A stretch of 40,714 bases of DNA from Chloroflexota bacterium (GTDB lineage Bacteria > Chloroflexota > Dehalococcoidia > Lucifugimonadales > Lucifugimonadaceae), in NCBI GenBank assembly GCA_027618835.1, contig JAQCHZ010000004.1, positions 1 through 40,714 on the forward strand, read 5' to 3'. Of this stretch, positions 10,743 through 38,538 are shown piece after piece. Each line of letters starts with the position of its first letter. The first letter of the stretch is position 1. The notes under the pieces were generated by a model. The model did no database searches, was not told the origin of the DNA, and worked only from the letters and a program-made list of their open reading frames with translations. A program made the translations under genes and the position numbers.

Positions 10743-11399
10743 TTAGCCCATGTATCGCCAGACGGCTATCACTCGGCTTAGAACTTCGATGTCTTCTGAT
10801 CGGAACGTCATTGCCTCCATTTGCGAGTTGGCTGGCTCTAGGCGAGTTCTTGGGCCTTCTGAGTAGTAATGCTTTAACGTAGTCGTGTTGTCTGACTTGA
10901 TGCGCACTGCTGCCATCTGGCCGTTTCGTACGGATGACGCTTGTTCCATGATGACTAGATCGCCATCTGAGATAAGAGCGTCGATCATTGATTCGCCTCT
11001 CACCTTCAAGGCGTATACGCCATCGCCAGTGCCGGTGATTGCCTGGGGGAGATCGATGAGTTCAGAGCCAGAGAGATCGGACCAGGTGTCGTTCTCTGGC
11101 ATCGGGAACGGCGAGCCAGCGGCGATAGTTCCAAGCAGCGGTACGGCTACAGTGTCGATAGAAATTGGCTCAGGTGCGGCGTCTCGCTGGTTCGACAGAC
11201 TTAGGCCCCGTGAGACTTCGGAATGGCGGTTCAAGTAGCCGTGTTCTTGAAGTCTATCGAGGTTGTAAGACACGACCGACGTCGACGTGATGTCGCACCC
11301 GGTTTGAATGTCTCGAATAGAGGGCGGGTAGTCGTGTTCGTCGATGAACTCCTCGATAAACGACAGTATCAATAACTGTTTTTCGGAGAGCTTTTTCAT
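10743..11399 (-). CDS. lexA: LexA repressor
   Basis: SOS-response repressor with self-cleaving protease activity. The 218 residues contain an N-terminal winged-helix DNA-binding domain (PPSIRDIQTGCDITSTSVVSY near 25-45). The cleavage site is Ala94-Gly95, in GTIAAGSP. The catalytic pair is Ser137 (VRGESMID) and Lys176 (TTTLKHYY). All residues needed for RecA-stimulated autoproteolysis are present. It is transcribed alone, divergent from nothing nearby. Candidate autoregulatory sites lie about 40-70 bases upstream. A strong SOS-like palindrome also lies upstream of the phage-type genes at 33692. Confidence 0.95.
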   Translation of the reverse strand: MKKLSEKQLLILSFIEEFIDEHDYPPSIRDIQTGCDITSTSVVSYNLDRLQEHGYLNRHSEVSRGLSLSNQRDAAPEPISIDTVAVPLLGTIAAGSPFPMPENDTWSDLSGSELIDLPQAITGTGDGVYALKVRGESMIDALISDGDLVIMEQASSVRNGQMAAVRIKSDNTTTLKHYYSEGPRTRLEPANSQMEAMTFRSEDIEVLSRVIAVWRYMG

Positions 11400-11437: not shown

Positions 11438-11468
11438 CATCAGTGCGTACATTTACGCACTAATGTTC
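11438..11468 (-). promoter_or_regulatory. candidate lexA operator(s)
   Basis: Two overlapping signals lie 39-69 bases upstream of the lexA ATG. First, a perfect 8-4-8 palindrome, AGTGCGTACATTTACGCACT (11442-11461), extends to CAT/ATG ends at 11438 and 11465. Second, on the minus strand GAAC-ATTA-GTGC (11457-11468) matches seven of eight positions of the Gram-positive/Dehalococcoides SOS box GAAC-N4-GTTC. Which one LexA binds cannot be decided by eye. Confidence 0.45.
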
Positions 11469-11630
11469 TGAAAATTATCAGTCGACACTGTTCCGTGTCA
11501 ATTGAATGTGTCACAAATTGCGATCATAAGTTCGTAATGGCTCGAGATGTTTTCTTATTGCAGTTGGCTGTGTTGGGGAATTGATGACGGATAACAATCA
11601 AGACGTCGGGCAAGGTGAACACGGCGTTGA

Positions 11631-32349: not shown

Positions 32350-33129
32350 CTATCGGTAGTCTTCGCCGTTGTCTAGCGGTGCGTATCCGACTGTTTTCTT
32401 AGCATGATCGGTATCCCAGAAGCGCCAAGTGTTGTCGGAAACTCCGTAAAAAATCTCAAACCCCAGTGGTTGGGTAATGCACTGCGTTACCAGTTGGGTG
32501 AGATCCCGGTGGCTCAGCCATGTCGCCAGCGTGCGAACTGAACCTTCGGGTCGAGCCTGGGGGCCTTTGGGGCTGTTTTGTGGGTTCACGGTTCCGATTC
32601 GTAGGCAGGCAACCTCGAGTCCGAAATGCTCGTGGTAGTACCGACCTGTTGCCTCCCCAAACACCTTGCTCACTCCGTAGTCGGAGTCGGGTCGGACTGG
32701 CACAGTGTGATCGATCATCTTGAAACCACCGGGTGTAAGTCCTTCGTAATCGCCAACCCGGATTTTGCTGTACGGCTCGTCCATTTCGAAATTACCAACA
32801 GCGTGGTTTGAACTGGCGAATATGACCCTTTTAACCCCATTTTGTCGAGCGGCTTCGTACACGTTGTGGGTAGCTGAAATGTTGTTCTTCAGAACATCGG
32901 GCCAAGGCGTTTCGACTGGGGCGTTGGCTGCGAGGTGTACTACCGCGTCGATGCCGGCAAAGGCTTTCGACATAGAGTCATAATCCGAACCGTCGGCGAT
33001 AAGAGTCGGGACGTCAGGGGCGTGCTCTGATTTTCGTGCGTCTAAAGCTGAAATCTCGAAAGTATCTGCTAGGGCGTTGACTAGCATTGATCCGATTAAT
33101 CCTGAGGAGCCTGTTACTAAAATTTTCAT
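32350..33129 (-). CDS. extended SDR, uronate dehydrogenase-like
   Basis: NAD-dependent short-chain dehydrogenase. The start is ATG 33129, giving 259 residues with the Rossmann motif GSSGLIGSMLV at 8-18. The SSNHAVG segment near 108 and the catalytic pair YGVSK near 155 match uronate dehydrogenases, as does the C-terminal TLATWLSHRDL. The likely reaction is oxidation of a uronic acid to its lactone, but other sugar substrates are possible. A longer upstream frame lacks a good start. It is convergent with the RGG-repeat gene. Confidence 0.87.
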   Translation of the reverse strand: MKILVTGSSGLIGSMLVNALADTFEISALDARKSEHAPDVPTLIADGSDYDSMSKAFAGIDAVVHLAANAPVETPWPDVLKNNISATHNVYEAARQNGVKRVIFASSNHAVGNFEMDEPYSKIRVGDYEGLTPGGFKMIDHTVPVRPDSDYGVSKVFGEATGRYYHEHFGLEVACLRIGTVNPQNSPKGPQARPEGSVRTLATWLSHRDLTQLVTQCITQPLGFEIFYGVSDNTWRFWDTDHAKKTVGYAPLDNGEDYR

Positions 33130-33317
33130 TGATTGATCTACTAGCTGGATATTTCGAGAAAAGTGATGTGTCGAATCATAACGATAGAGAAGGAGAAATT
33201 GGCGTAAATCGGGCAATTTTGGGTGATAATTTTGTTTTGCAGTTAGCCCGCTATTTGTCGCGTAAAACGTTTGGTGAATGTTGATAGTTGAACATGTTTC
33301 ACAACTTCTTCATGCCA

Positions 33318-33352: not shown

Positions 33353-33435
33353 TGAGAAGCTTTGTTCAGGGCGGCAATGCAACACGGAGCGCAGTCTGAC
33401 CAGCCCCCGACGCACTCTGGCATTGCCGCCTTTTT
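33353..33435 (+). ncRNA. possible small RNA (long-loop hairpin ending in terminator)
   Basis: A promoter-like pair is followed by a 13-bp stem (33368-33380 with 33420-33432, one G-T pair; core GGCGGCAATGC), a 39-base loop and TTTTT at 33431-33435. The unit would make an RNA of about 80 bases. I do not recognise it as a known family such as SRP, 6S or a riboswitch. It may equally be a terminator for an unseen transcript. Confidence 0.4.
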
Positions 33436-33622: not shown

Positions 33623-33673
33623 TTGACTGCTGGCTTGTACGCGGCTAGTTTATTAGAACATATGTTCTGATAA
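33623..33673 (+). promoter_or_regulatory. promoter with overlapping SOS (LexA) box
   Basis: TTGACT (33623-33628) and TAGTTT (33646-33651) are 17 bases apart. Straight after the -10 lies AGAACATATGTTCT (33655-33668), a perfect 14-bp palindrome. It contains GAAC-N4-GTTC, and its flanks TTATT/GATAA extend the symmetry to 33650-33673 with one mismatch. It fits the Gram-positive/Dehalococcoides LexA box and would cover the transcription start of the zinc-ribbon/terminase/portal genes. Confidence 0.75.
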
Positions 33674-33691
33674 ATAGAGAAAGAAGTACCA

Positions 33692-33889
33692 ATGGAAGTG
33701 CAGGCAAGGGTTGTTACACCTGAAATCAACGGCAGCGGGTTCGATGTAGCTGCGGGCGTAGGTGATGACGGGGCGAGTTGCCCAAGATGCGAGAATGATG
33801 CACCAGTTCGACTTGAAAAAGCCGACGCACAAGCGAACACGTGCTATCGATGCCGTACATGTGGTCACATTTTTAGTCCACGCGATTAG
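33692..33889 (+). CDS. small zinc-ribbon protein
   Basis: The 65-residue protein has CPRC near 29 and CYRCRTCGHIF near the end, giving a Cys4-type zinc ribbon. A GAAAGAAG site precedes ATG 33692. Its stop overlaps the terminase GTG by one base, so the two are translated together. It sits where phages usually encode a terminase small subunit or a DNA-binding accessory protein, but no small-subunit signature is seen. Expression is probably governed by the SOS box 20-40 bases upstream. Confidence 0.7.
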   Translation: MEVQARVVTPEINGSGFDVAAGVGDDGASCPRCENDAPVRLEKADAQANTCYRCRTCGHIFSPRD

Positions 33890-35331
33890 TGAAACGTGAC
33901 TCTTCTCAGAATTCGATACCGGTATCGGGCGAGGTCGAAACACCTCACTATCTAGATTCCGTTAGAGCGATTTGGGCGAACGATCCTGTTCGGTTCACAA
34001 GCGCAACACTAGGAGCTAGTCCGTGGTCGAAGCAGATTGAAATTCTGGAGGCGATTCGCGACAACGTGCGGGTTGCAGTGCGTTCATGCAACGGATCGGG
34101 CAAGACATACATAGCGGCACACGTGGTGTTGTGGTGGCTTATGTGCCACCACAATGCGATTGTCATAACGACGGCTCCGACGGCTCATCAAGTTCGAAAC
34201 ATTCTTTGGAGAGAGATACGCTGTGCTCATCATGAGAATGCTGCAGCGGTTGGTGGAACGCTTTTACGGACGTCGCTAGAACTTGGCGATAAACACTACG
34301 CTGAGGGACTGTCGACCGATACTCCTGAGCGTTTCCAGGGCTTTCATGAAGGGCACATTCTGTTTGTGGTCGACGAGGCTTCTGGAGTTCGAGAAGGGAT
34401 TTTCGAAGCGATTGAGGGGTCGATGACTTCGGCAGGTGCGAAGGTGTTGCTTTTGGGTAATCCGACTTCTCTAAAAGGGACGTTTTACGAAGCGAGTCAC
34501 AAGCGTAGGGGCCTGTGGAAGACGATTCACATATCGGCTTTCGATACGCCGAACCTCGTCAAAAACGAGGTGGTGATGCCATCTTTGGTCACTCCGAAAT
34601 GGGTTGCCGATGCCGAACAAAACTGTGGTACCGAAAGCTACCTCTATCAAGTGAGGGTCATGGGCGAGTTTCCGAGCGAGTCGGAAGATACGTTGATTTC
34701 ATTGAAGCTTGTGGAGTCGGCGGCTAGCGAGGATCGATTAGCCGTGTCTACAGATGATTTCATTGAGGTCGGGGTGGACGTTGCTCGGGTTGAGAGCGAC
34801 AAAACGGCGATATGTGTTCGCAGAGGTAACAAGATAGTTTGGCTCGAGTCGTTTGGTCGGCAGGACACGATGGGGACTGCCGGGAGAGTGGCTCGGATTG
34901 CTCGTGAGCATTCACCAAGTGCGATCAGGATCGATGAGATCGGAATAGGTGCTGGTGTTGTTGATCGACTTCACGAGCTTGAGATTCCTAAAGTTGAAGG
35001 TATAAACGTTGCCCGTCGTGCTTCTAAGCCGGAGCAGTTTGCGAATCTCATGGCCGAATTATACGACGGTCTGAGAGAACGGTTCATGGGTGGACGAATT
35101 GCGATACCTGACGATTCAGATTTGATATCGCAGTTGGCGTCAGTCAAGTACTCGTTCACAAGTAGCGGTCAGATGCGTATTGAAGGTAAGGATGAGTTGC
35201 GTTCAGGCGAACACAGTCCAGATCTTGCTGATGCGGTGATGCTTGCATTCGCCAAATCGGCAGATCGTGGATTTAGATTCTGGGTAGGTCCAGAAAGTGG
35301 AGATACAGACTTAGAAGAACCATGTGATTAA
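33889..35331 (+). CDS. phage terminase large subunit
   Basis: Packaging motor ATPase-nuclease, 480 residues. The ATPase has Walker A SCNGSGKT near 67-73, Walker B ILFVVDEAS near 157-165 and a coupling-motif-like LLLGNPTS near 188. The RNase H-like nuclease shows acidic residues in VGVDVARVESDKTA (about 300), IRIDEIGIGAG (about 350) and HSPDLADAVMLAF near the end. No truncation or missing key residue is visible, so the enzyme could be active. GTG 33889 overlaps the preceding stop. The portal gene follows after 9 bases. Confidence 0.9.
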   Translation: MKRDSSQNSIPVSGEVETPHYLDSVRAIWANDPVRFTSATLGASPWSKQIEILEAIRDNVRVAVRSCNGSGKTYIAAHVVLWWLMCHHNAIVITTAPTAHQVRNILWREIRCAHHENAAAVGGTLLRTSLELGDKHYAEGLSTDTPERFQGFHEGHILFVVDEASGVREGIFEAIEGSMTSAGAKVLLLGNPTSLKGTFYEASHKRRGLWKTIHISAFDTPNLVKNEVVMPSLVTPKWVADAEQNCGTESYLYQVRVMGEFPSESEDTLISLKLVESAASEDRLAVSTDDFIEVGVDVARVESDKTAICVRRGNKIVWLESFGRQDTMGTAGRVARIAREHSPSAIRIDEIGIGAGVVDRLHELEIPKVEGINVARRASKPEQFANLMAELYDGLRERFMGGRIAIPDDSDLISQLASVKYSFTSSGQMRIEGKDELRSGEHSPDLADAVMLAFAKSADRGFRFWVGPESGDTDLEEPCD

Positions 35332-35340
35332 GGACTCTGG

Positions 35341-36585
35341 ATGAAATTCGGACTAGATGGCATTGCTGGTATTAAGTCGGGAATTGGTCGTGTTGTTAGC
35401 GACAGATTTCGGTCGAGTGAAAAGGCAAACAGGGCTACGCGGGTGACAGTTGATCGCCTTGATGCGGTCGACGGCATTGGTGGCGAGTGGGCGTCGAAGA
35501 AATACGGTGATTACTACGCAACCTCTGCTTCGATTTACGCGGCGGTTAGGACCCGTGCGGATGCGGTTGATTGTCCTGAACTTCTCGTAGAGAAAGCGAT
35601 TGAATCGCACGGTGTTCGCACCTGGCAGCACGTGGACGTAAATCACCCACTTCAGCAACTTATTGATCGACCAAACGGATCATGGAGTCGTGCAGAGGTG
35701 GTGCGAGCAGTCGAGTCGAATCTGTCGCTTTGGGGTAGCGCATTTATTGGTATTGAGAAGGACGATTCTGGGGTGGTGAGCGAGCTATGACCGCTTCGCC
35801 CTGACCGCATGCGGGTGATCCCTGATGTGAAGAAATATGTTCGTGGATTTGTGTACGAACATGCCGGAGATCGAGTCGCTTATTTACCTGAAGAGATGAT
35901 CAGGGTAAAGCAGTACAACCCGATCGAGGAGTTTGCTGGATTGTCGTCGGTTGCTCCGGCTCGACTGTCAGTTGACATGGGGTTTGAAGCGCAACGATTT
36001 AATCGAAATTTCTTCGCCAATTCGGCTACTCCCGGCGATCTGGGAATTACGTCGGACGAGACACCGACGGATGAAGAAGTATCTGCGTTTTATTCTCGGT
36101 GGAATACACGGTTCAAAGGATCATCGAGGTCACATCGTCCGATTCTTCTTGGTCGGGGTATGGATGCAAAGCGGCTTGGGATGACGCAACGCGATATGGA
36201 GTTTTCGAAAGCACTTGAGTGGTCGGTAGAAGAGGTTTCACGGGCGTTCGGGGTGCCGACGGTGTTTTTAGGTGAGCTTGAGAATGCCACATTGTCGAAC
36301 GTTGGTACGTTCGAGCGGTTTCTATGGCGAAATACGATTTTGCCGGAACTAAAGCTGATCGAAGATTGCTTGAATCGGATCTTGGTGCCGGCATTGGGAT
36401 TTGCTTCCAGCGAGTATCGATTCAGGTTCGATACTTCTGAGATTGATGCATTGAACGAGTCTGAGGATTCGTTGGTCGCTCGTGAGGTAAGTTTGGTGAA
36501 TGCGGGAGTGATGACGCCAAACGAGGTGAGGGCCAGGCACGGTCTAGAGGCGGCAGATTGGGGAGCGGCGGCGAAGGGTGGGTAG
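35341..36585 (+). pseudogene. phage portal protein (HK97-type), interrupted by in-frame UGA
   Basis: One continuous frame of 414 codons encodes an HK97-family portal apart from a TGA at 35788-35790. The frame runs from MKFGLDGIAGIKSG through WASKKYGDYYATS, NLSLWGSAFIGIEKD, SEL-(stop)-PLRPDRMRVIPDV and FNRNFFANSATPG to EVRARHGLEAADW. Portals usually have ELWPLRPDRM, so TGA replaces a Trp TGG codon through a single base change. Without readthrough the product is 149 residues and cannot assemble. A restart at ATG 35809 would give the C-terminal 258. No capsid or protease gene follows. Confidence 0.85.
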
Positions 36586-36754
36586 ATCGGGATTGTGCTT
36601 GTGTGAATGGCGGAGTGACCCGGCTTTCGAATCGTCGAGGGCCAGGTCAGAGTGTGTTGAGTTTGCAAGACTCCTGAAATCCCGCTGCCCAGATTGTCGA
36701 AGTTTGTGGGGTGTTTTTCCTATTATGAAGATGTGCATTCAGGAGACTTTGTAA
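36578..36754 (+). CDS. possible small Cys-rich protein after portal
   Basis: A 58-codon frame from GTG 36578, overlapping the portal stop, encodes a peptide with CLCEW near residue 7 and CPDC near 36. This might be a zinc-binding protein of the kind found next to phage portal genes. Its 3' end overlaps the proposed start of the antiporter gene. No family recognised; it may be chance. Confidence 0.25.
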   Translation: MGRSGLCLCEWRSDPAFESSRARSECVEFARLLKSRCPDCRSLWGVFPIMKMCIQETL

Positions 36755-38538
36755 GAGATTTCGCGCTCATCATGGTCGCAGCAGCAGCGGCCTTGATACT
36801 TTTCCGTTTGATTCGGCAGCCACCGATACTCGGCTATCTCCTCGCGGGCATGCTCGTTGGTCCGTTTGCCCTCCAGGGGCGATTTGTATCTGATACCGAG
36901 ACCGTATCTCTGGTCGCCGAGGTCGGACTTGTGGTGTTGCTCTTTGCCATTGGCGTGGAGTTCGGCTGGGAGCGAATCCGGAAAATCGGATTCCGAGTTG
37001 TTCTTATAGGCGCTGTCGAGATCGCTGCGATGATTTCGCTTGGCTATTACCTCGGTAGAGCGCTTGGATGGACGCCCGCAACTTCGGTTTATCTCGGTGC
37101 AGCACTGGCATTTTCGAGTTCGGCAGTTTTGGTTCAGATGCTCAGAGAAAACGGGCAGTTGATGTCACTGCGTGGGCAGTTGATCGTCGGTATTTTAGTA
37201 GTTGAAGACTTCGTGGCCGTAGTGCTTCTTGCAGTTTTCTCGGGCTACGCAAATCAAGAATCAGGCGGGGCTGTCCAAGTCTGGCCGATCGTAATTAAGA
37301 TGACCGTGTTTGCAGTTGGAGCTCTGGTATTCGGCACCCTACTTGCTCCTCGATTGATGGATTTGTTGGATTATCTGAAGTCTCGTGAAACATTGTTGAT
37401 CGGTAGTTTAGGAATGTGCTTCGGTGTGGGGCTTCTGGCGCGCGAGATGGGTTTATCGGCAGGAGCAGGCGCTTTTTTGATTGGGACCGTACTTGGCGAT
37501 ACTCGACATCGGGATCAAATCGCTCGACTCATTTCGCCTGTACGAGACGTATTCGCAGCATTATTTTTCGTTTCGATTGGCATGTTGGTGAACATGGGTG
37601 ATGTGCCCGAATTATTCGGCACCTCACTGATAGTCACAGGAGTGTTGCTGATCGGAAAGATATTGGCTGCAACAGTCGGAACCTTCATGACGGGTCACGA
37701 TGGCGAAACTTCATTGCGAGTGGGTACAGCGATGCCGCAGCTTGGTGAATTTTCATTGGCTATCGCTCGATCTGGCAGTGAGCATGCCGCGGTCGGATCG
37801 CAGCTATATCCGGTCGTCACGATCAGCACGGTGATGTCGTCGTTTTTGTATCCGTTGATATTCAGCTCACACCGCGTGATCGGATCGCTGGTTGGCAGGT
37901 TGATGACTTCCAGAGTGAAGATAGGGGCTACAGCATTTTCATCGGCGATAGCGACTGCTCGTCGCTCGATGGCTCCCGCAAAACCTGCACCCCATAAATT
38001 CGTTCGAGGCGTGCGATCGGCCGCGGTGAGTTTCGGAATCATTGGGTTGGTAATAGTCGCTGGTGTGTTGATATCGAACGCTGGAACGAGTTTGGCGGGC
38101 GATATTGGTATATCTGAAGACCTCGTTGGTGCCGCCGTGATCGCTGCCGTCGTTACGCTCGCAGTGCCAGCCGCCATCGTAATTTGGCGCTTATTGTCGG
38201 ATCTGGGCACTATTTTTGCGCGACGGGCGTTTATTCTATTCCACATGACGAAACGGCTTAATGCAGCTGATGCCATTAGCGTGGGCGCTGTGAGTATTTT
38301 CATGATGATCACGGGAGTATGGCTTGTGACGCAGTTGCTGCAAATGATGCCCGTAGACGATTTGACGTCGCCTGTTTCGGCACTTGTTATGGCGTTAAGC
38401 GTTGCCTCGACGGCCACGCTGGCGATGAAGATCCACTCGCAGATGGACCGCACGTTTAGGCGAACGCTGCTTGGCGATGCTGCAGGCGAAGAGCCGCCGT
38501 CGATACCAGCTGACGGTAGTGCTTCAGCCGGAGATTAG
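36733..38538 (+). CDS. CPA2-type cation/proton antiporter (KefB-like)
   Basis: Membrane antiporter of the Kef/CPA2 family. The frame contains RQPPILGYLLAGMLVGPFAL near the N-terminus, VGLVVLLFAIGVEF, LAFSSSAVLVQML and VVEDFVAVVLLA near residue 170. About 12 helices form the exchanger domain. No RCK (TrkA-N) nucleotide-binding domain follows; instead the C-terminal 200 residues contain four more helices. The start is uncertain: GTG 36733 or TTG 36694 (13 residues longer). The cation is unknown. It follows the phage-like genes directly and marks the right edge of that segment. Confidence 0.85.
   Translation: MHSGDFVRDFALIMVAAAAALILFRLIRQPPILGYLLAGMLVGPFALQGRFVSDTETVSLVAEVGLVVLLFAIGVEFGWERIRKIGFRVVLIGAVEIAAMISLGYYLGRALGWTPATSVYLGAALAFSSSAVLVQMLRENGQLMSLRGQLIVGILVVEDFVAVVLLAVFSGYANQESGGAVQVWPIVIKMTVFAVGALVFGTLLAPRLMDLLDYLKSRETLLIGSLGMCFGVGLLAREMGLSAGAGAFLIGTVLGDTRHRDQIARLISPVRDVFAALFFVSIGMLVNMGDVPELFGTSLIVTGVLLIGKILAATVGTFMTGHDGETSLRVGTAMPQLGEFSLAIARSGSEHAAVGSQLYPVVTISTVMSSFLYPLIFSSHRVIGSLVGRLMTSRVKIGATAFSSAIATARRSMAPAKPAPHKFVRGVRSAAVSFGIIGLVIVAGVLISNAGTSLAGDIGISEDLVGAAVIAAVVTLAVPAAIVIWRLLSDLGTIFARRAFILFHMTKRLNAADAISVGAVSIFMMITGVWLVTQLLQMMPVDDLTSPVSALVMALSVASTATLAMKIHSQMDRTFRRTLLGDAAGEEPPSIPADGSASAGD

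Follow-up and report, generated by a model that had tools for sequence, protein, structure and literature searches.

The gene transfer agents (GTAs) of Rhodobacter (RcGTA), Caulobacter (CcGTA) and Brachyspira (BhGTA) are built from tailed-phage structural genes that are vertically inherited, lie at scattered loci and stand under host control. RcGTA is spread over five loci and BhGTA is inducible with mitomycin C (PMC9662315, in excerpt); CcGTA is linked to DNA repair and to a LexA-like repressor, RogA, and a role in providing repair templates has been reported for it (PMC9632790, in excerpt). The word LexA is absent from the main text, in the part available, of a 2024 review (PMC11841831). By title, and among the matches listed, publications that pair GTAs with LexA are mostly alphaproteobacterial or general, and none describes a GTA-like system in Chloroflexota. 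Two other kinds of element are comparable: capsid-forming PICIs, which bring their own capsid, portal and terminase and no tails (PMC11389934, in excerpt), and temperate phages under SOS control such as GIL01, in which host LexA binds operators in phage promoters (PMC4551915, in excerpt).

Here we analyse a 40,714-nucleotide stretch (the window) of the genome of a marine SAR202 bacterium (Chloroflexota; genus of Candidatus Lucifugimonas), in which a terminase and portal cassette lies behind a predicted LexA operator. Unlike the GTAs above, the system has a chloroflexotal host, carries what looks like the host's own LexA-type operator on each head operon, comes with no tail genes found in the family, and is known from its genes alone. 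Unlike capsid-forming PICIs, it is not one island and is syntenic among host genes, with no integrase recognised in the family loci. Its likeness to GIL01-type phages lies in the operators, which here are predicted, but it is no phage genome, and genes for replication, lysogeny or tails were not recognised alongside the cassette. We think it probable, though by no means assured, that the cassette is a domesticated, LexA-boxed part of a dispersed, LexA-controlled, GTA-like packaging system.

Results

The cassette and its predicted operator

The palindrome before the cassette (Table 1) lies where a first-pass annotation of this DNA had placed an SOS box, and the 24 bp with one mismatch described there are the same feature as the 26-bp form that we give, in which 12 of 13 arm pairs match and the core GAACATATGTTC occupies 33656-33667. 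The TTGAC-type promoter described with it is present in its -35 hexamer; the -10 candidate, TAGTTT at 33646-33651, is weak as judged by reading, and the 14-mer box starts 3 bases 3' of it. The bare core GAACNNNNGTTC is not rare and proves little alone: it occurs at 104 places of the genome and its reversed control at 68, and the window has 4 copies where shuffling gives a mean of 0.89. With one base added on each side, AGAACNNNNGTTCT occurs at 5 sites in 2.41 Mb (1 for the control), namely at the cassette, before an operon for a 240-aa and a 150-aa protein, upstream of an ImuB-like gene (PF00817), and twice inside reading frames. Outside this genome (G000), the ImuB-like label is one we presume from the look of the sequence.

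Zinc-ribbon, terminase and portal genes directly follow the box, as had been annotated, with the portal gene split by a stop. The window's large terminase (TerL) is 81% identical to that of G012. The portal is interrupted by an in-frame TGA at 35788-35790, a position that encodes Trp in 7 of 7 compared relatives; a sequencing error might conceivably account for the stop. Among named phages, TerL is 34-41% identical to the best 10 of 500 records and the capsid of the system (see below) 24% identical to the best 10 of 893. TerL relatives at 46-48% also occur in metagenome-assembled genomes that bear the labels Desulfotomaculum, Firmicutes and Ca. Andersenbacteria (L191, L188, L207).

Upstream of the box, at 33370-33435, an inverted repeat (GGCGGCAATGC / GCATTGCCGCC) is followed by a T run and is probably a terminator. 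It has no Rfam match, and the Rfam scan of the window returned a single tRNA and nothing else at gathering thresholds.

Table 1. Features of the window at the cassette and at lexA, with the profiles or comparisons that identify them.
Feature	Coordinates	Strand	Identification
Predicted LexA operator of lexA (TCAGAACATTAGTGCGTA)	11454..11471	-	GAACATTAGTGC upstream of lexA in 14/16 genomes
lexA, complete	10743..11399	-	PF01726 + PF00717 over cut-off
NAD-dependent epimerase gene, host flank	32350..33216	-	PF01370; same place in G005, G009, G012, G013, G017
-35 hexamer TTGACT	33623..33628	+	TTGAC in register in 12/13 aligned upstream regions
LexA operator (SOS box), predicted	33649..33674	.	26-bp palindrome, one mismatched pair
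65-aa zinc-ribbon protein, first cassette gene	33692..33889	+	PF09723 partial, below cut-off; relatives upstream of TerL
Large terminase (TerL), frame intact	33889..35331	+	phrog_2 5e-41
Portal, N-terminal part, ends at in-frame TGA	35341..35790	+	PF04860 (below cut-off), phrog_12
Portal, C-terminal part, same frame	35809..36585	+	PF04860 3e-48, phrog_2662 5e-55
Na+/H+ exchanger gene, host flank downstream of portal	36694..38538	+	PF00999

The operator is shared with recA and lexA

The first-pass annotation had proposed asking whether recA, lexA and the cassette share one motif, and in this genome and its relatives they do. The recA promoter of the same genome carries CAGAACACTTGTGCTAA and its lexA promoter CAGAACATTAGTGCG, the latter belonging to the complete lexA that the annotation had also noted in the window. 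In relatives, the lexA box of Table 1 was counted over 16 regions from 17 genomes with a match (a weak G110 match and secondary matches left out), and a one-mismatch box stands upstream of recA in 12 of 17 genomes (17 regions, a G072 fragment left out). The annotation's further remark that Dehalococcoides LexA uses this box found no confirmation in the literature among the matches listed.

We built a matrix from 27 of the 33 recA and lexA operators of the clade, with no phage-gene sites; the six dropped (lexA of G133 and G046; recA of G110, G133, G046 and G067) had no clear site or came from outside the family. The matrix score of the cassette site is the strong test and is independent of the palindrome. 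On both strands of the window, the lexA operator, itself a training site, scored 25.3 and the cassette site came second, with 21.4 on one strand and 19.9 on the other; after it no site exceeded 7.7, and 60 Markov resamples of the window gave a maximum of 19.6 (mean 12.6). The palindrome at the cassette thus looks like a true LexA operator. A chance palindrome is ruled out by the score of 21.4 together with the exact box at 14 of 15 orthologous loci described below.

Elsewhere in the genome, a second protein, of about 369 aa, has a LexA-type DNA-binding domain (C5:147300-147479), with similar matches in G005, G007, G009, G013, G017 and G133. A tandem pair of LexA boxes (C5:54722-54753; L078:14723-14754) precedes a conserved operon for a protein of about 240 aa, which has no Pfam or PHROGs match, and a helix-turn-helix protein of about 150 aa. 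The operon neighbours a gene that we take, from the look of its sequence, to be cinA-like; boxes before it recur in G005, G012, G013, G017, G021 and G036, and it is possibly a further SOS regulator or effector.

Box and gene order are conserved among relatives

Of 149 relatives, most of them incomplete metagenome assemblies, 39 have a TerL homologue. At 14 of the 15 orthologous cassette loci of the family, the exact AGAACNNNNGTTCT lies at most 500 bp upstream of the TerL match, with a binomial tail of 2.5e-41 at the own-genome rate if the kinship of the loci is ignored; in the exception, G031, the box has one base missing and the TerL match has two stops. The boxed cassette was also found in three other genera of the family, and the TerL loci scanned in other genera and families had no exact box. 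When the upstream regions of 13 of the 15 loci were aligned, the columns of the box were nearly all invariant, against a mean column identity of 45%.

The order epimerase, zinc ribbon, TerL, portal and Na+/H+ exchanger is common to G005, G012, G013 and G017, and is partial in G007 and G009, where the stretch ends or includes further genes. The exchanger lies downstream of the portal in G005, G012, G013, G017 and G019, and in G007 2 kb further on. In genera g4 and g10 the portal is followed instead by an RNase D-type gene (3'-5' exonuclease with HRDC domain) and an RraA-like one (profiles: G021), which are again host flanks. Synteny within the genus and the host flanks of other genera point to vertical descent along with the host genome; single instances may have been transferred horizontally. 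G013 is the complete chromosome of a cultured relative, and the window falls in the same genus by the kinship table.

Some TerL genes have unusual structures. Matches are split near query residues 280-290 by some 85-155 extra residues at L041, L042, L040 and other loci, and the insertion could be an intein. G085, G143 and G078 each give six or seven TerL match rows, some of them pieces of one gene; at several of the loci looked at in these genomes, no portal or capsid match lay nearby.

A separate boxed operon encodes the capsid

The cassette had been described as a phage module without capsid or integrase. The description holds for the window, where neither was recognised beside the cassette (profiles, ORF list); it fails as an account of the system, since the capsid belongs to a second boxed operon in relatives and the cassette is placed among host genes. 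A capsid-less phage module as the whole story is ruled out by that separate operon. A capsid profile matched 12 of 18 genomes, our own and G013 not among the 12. In G036 and G021 the operon begins with a box, a prohead protease gene (PF04586), an HK97-type capsid gene (PF05065, phrog_10) and genes for decoration-like proteins, continues with a fibre-like protein (phrog_18345, G036), head-tail connector (phrog_442) and tail terminator (phrog_17840), and ends with a membrane-type protein of 78-79 aa, the 79-aa form holin-like to the eye; one genome's copy of each protein was scanned. Its flanks are cytidylate-kinase-like and MFS transporter genes, and two other flanking genes have no profile match.

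TerL and the capsid operon share a contig in G005, G012, G019, G021, G036 and G040, at distances of 4.3 to 22.1 kb. Across the 149 relatives, capsid occurs in 32, TerL in 39 and both in 28 (Fisher p 3e-17, relatedness ignored). We scored 12 of the 17 family genomes with a capsid match, leaving out G037, G053, G063, G067 and G068, and 9 of the 12 have a box, with the protease between box and capsid. The box is exact in G019 (where it scores only 9.7 by matrix), G021, G036, G040, G048, G052 and G072, and has one mismatch in G005 and G012. The three boxless loci (G046, G028, G058) all belong to genus g11. G046, the one g11 genome so tested, lacks the box at recA and lexA too; with recA, lexA and capsid alike boxless in G046, and capsid boxless in G028 and G058, the genus serves as a natural control. 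G046 has a weak LexA-domain match, and its TerL and capsid persist without boxes. Outside the family, five capsid loci scored by matrix (G078, G084, G120, G141, G143) had no box, and in G133 and G107 a one-mismatch box precedes the protease.

At the syntenic place of our own genome, outside the window (C5:43333-43848), no more than a remnant of the capsid operon is left: a connector gene reduced to its end and spread over two frames, and a terminator gene that is intact. The system is decaying in this genome, and its copy is unlikely to make particles, because the portal is interrupted and the capsid operon almost wholly gone.

Tail genes and phage ancestry

The tape-measure profile PF10145 matched 4 of 18 genomes (G036; G053, with two matches; G021 and G085, weakly), and PF05709 matched 0 of 17, a weak test in that only 1 of 14 control genomes matched. 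A tail-tube query taken from L355, a 56-kb viral contig, matched 5 of 17 genomes (G107, G114, G133, G141, G036), of which G036 is the sole member of the family; its match lies, with a tape measure, on a separate 6.4-kb contig (C95). Tail tube and a 650-aa protein are encoded at a distance from the capsid in G107 and G114, and in G141 the pair follows the connector. In these three genomes the tail tube has a 210-aa and a 650-aa protein as neighbours; those scanned (both of G107, the 650-aa one of G141) gave no tail profile, and none or one weak match to a family of unknown function; the label hub-like rests on position and mutual similarity. Relatives of the tail-tube and 650-aa proteins occur in no other family locus compared, nor in 800 kb of G019. 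A tail-like module thus exists in other families of the order; it was not found in this family, which does not prove its absence. Apart from the matches in G036, G021 and G053, PF10145, PF05709 and the one tail-tube query found no tail genes in the family, and a complete set of particle genes with a tail was not recognised there. No small terminase or lysis gene was recognised in a reading of ORFs and profiles, as distinct from a dedicated search. In the family loci read, no integrase, repressor, replication gene or att sites bounding a phage genome were seen (ORF listing, with profiles for part of the ORFs), nor were integrase, repressor or att sites at the window's cassette.

By their profiles, TerL, portal, protease, capsid, connector and terminator go back to structural genes of tailed phages. 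The head genes of L355 stand in this order too, with tail tube and tape measure after them, and in G133 and G110, which belong to other families, the head genes stand in one stretch followed by a ribosomal L25-type gene (profile: G133). The simplest account of the origin would be a tailed-phage ancestor that later split. In G114 a serine recombinase gene (PF00239, PF07508) directly follows the terminator gene (L380:12871-14649) and may be a relic of a mobile ancestor, and a phage-type integrase gene lies near the head genes of the viral contig L342; the two are a counter-sign to full domestication everywhere. Titles and abstracts among the literature matches listed held nothing on a SAR202 prophage.

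Selection and loss

We computed pairwise dN/dS (Nei-Gojobori) on hand-chosen copies with open frames, plus the G000 portal. Among G000, G012 and G013 the ratio is 0.05-0.06 for TerL and 0.035-0.08 for the portal (0.06 and 0.035, respectively, for G012-G013); the capsid pair G012-G005 gives 0.036, and the terminator gene, compared between G000 and G012, gives 0.083. These values are rough, as dS in genus g1 is high (0.85-2.9) and many pairs are saturated. Between genera the ratio is 0.10-0.25 where computable, many saturated pairs giving none, and within genus g4 the G021-G031 portal pair gives 0.055. Such low ratios argue against long neutral decay. Loss is also evident: in the window's genus a TerL match is present in 8 of 19 genomes and a capsid in 2 of 19, and the complete chromosome of G013 keeps intact TerL and portal genes without a capsid. 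TerL has stops in G005, G007, G010 and G031.

Discussion

The operators, the synteny, the purifying selection and the gene identities are properties of the sequences. From them we infer how such a system would work, from LexA binding and induction through assembly and DNA content to transfer and benefit. LexA would hold both operons off together with recA, lexA and the imuB-like gene. Upon DNA damage RecA would be activated and LexA cleaved, and both operons would be expressed with recA and the imuB-like gene. Once heads had assembled, TerL would load them with DNA by way of the portal, yielding a GTA-like particle. The benefit may be repair templates, as proposed for the Caulobacter GTA. For the steps beyond operators and genes we draw on what is established about LexA, HK97 and terminases. 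With its portal broken and its capsid operon almost wholly lost, the window's own genome would on induction make no more than TerL, the zinc-ribbon protein and a fragment of the portal.

A GTA-like system is supported by the operator shared with recA and lexA, the conservation of the box, the second boxed operon, the host synteny, the low dN/dS, the g11 control and the capsid-operon remnant at the syntenic place in the own genome. It is weakened by the patchy presence of TerL (8 of 19) and capsid (2 of 19) in the genus, by the capsid-less G013 and the broken portal of the own genome, by a capsid match in G040 that covers only residues 1-312 and one in G067 with a stop, and by the incompleteness of most assemblies. 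The lack of a recognised small terminase or lysis gene and the five boxless capsid loci outside the family weaken it further, and the G114 recombinase, as in a mobile element, lowers our confidence slightly. Delivery is left unexplained because no tail module was found in the family.

Much of this loss would also be expected of a decaying prophage, whose temperate-phage head genes were scattered by rearrangement and are disappearing, the boxes being leftovers of induction by the host LexA. The broken portal and deleted capsid operon of the own genome, the TerL stops in four relatives and the capsid missing from G013 all suit it, and it gains from the head order of L355 with tail tube and tape measure, which indicates a tailed-phage origin, and from the recombinase or integrase near the head genes of G114 and L342. 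We nevertheless regard it as unlikely, if deserving of serious weight: neutral decay does not sit well with synteny in the genus, with low dN/dS or with boxes that several genera have kept at both operons, and ORF listing, with profiles for part of the ORFs, showed no integrase, repressor or replication gene in the family loci read.

The tail results bear on a second alternative, a domesticated satellite of the capsid-forming PICI kind that makes and fills its own heads but depends on a helper phage for tails. It would predict what the family shows, head, portal and terminase genes with no tails, and likewise the genomes without PF10145 (14 of 18) and PF05709 (17 of 17). It seems to us improbable, however, in view of the 4-22 kb and the host genes that separate the two operons, of host-like synteny, of family loci in which no integrase was recognised, and of an own tail tube in some other families of the order. 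TerL and portal alone might instead serve an SOS-switched host function without a capsid, in DNA translocation or interference with infecting phages. That 11 of the 39 TerL genomes have no capsid match, among them the complete G013 with intact TerL and portal, and that both genes are under constraint between G012 and G013, would suit such a function; yet several of the 11 are incomplete assemblies, the loss in G013 may be recent, and TerL and capsid co-occur strongly, and we consider it very unlikely.

A domesticated GTA-like particle in SAR202 would differ from described ones in having each head operon switched directly by the host LexA, inside the SOS regulon, with no tail in one family and a tail tube elsewhere in some others, so that damage leads to DNA packaging; this fuller proposal is tentative, and we hold it with a little less than even confidence. 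If true, it would add a GTA-like system in Chloroflexota, tie DNA packaging directly to the SOS response, and offer widespread ocean bacteria a route for gene exchange or for sharing repair templates. A SAR202 relative is in culture, Candidatus Lucifugimonas marina (PMC10444878, in excerpt), and makes the regulatory half testable now; the available main text of that paper does not mention phage, prophage, SOS or terminase.

There is also a warning here for viral sequence collections, in which chromosomal genes of this kind may have been entered as viral. In IMG/VR, 61 contigs (L311-L371) encode relatives of the capsid, 53 of them shorter than 15 kb. One of these capsids is 100% identical to the chromosomal capsid of G012, and some chromosomal genes are probably filed there as viruses.
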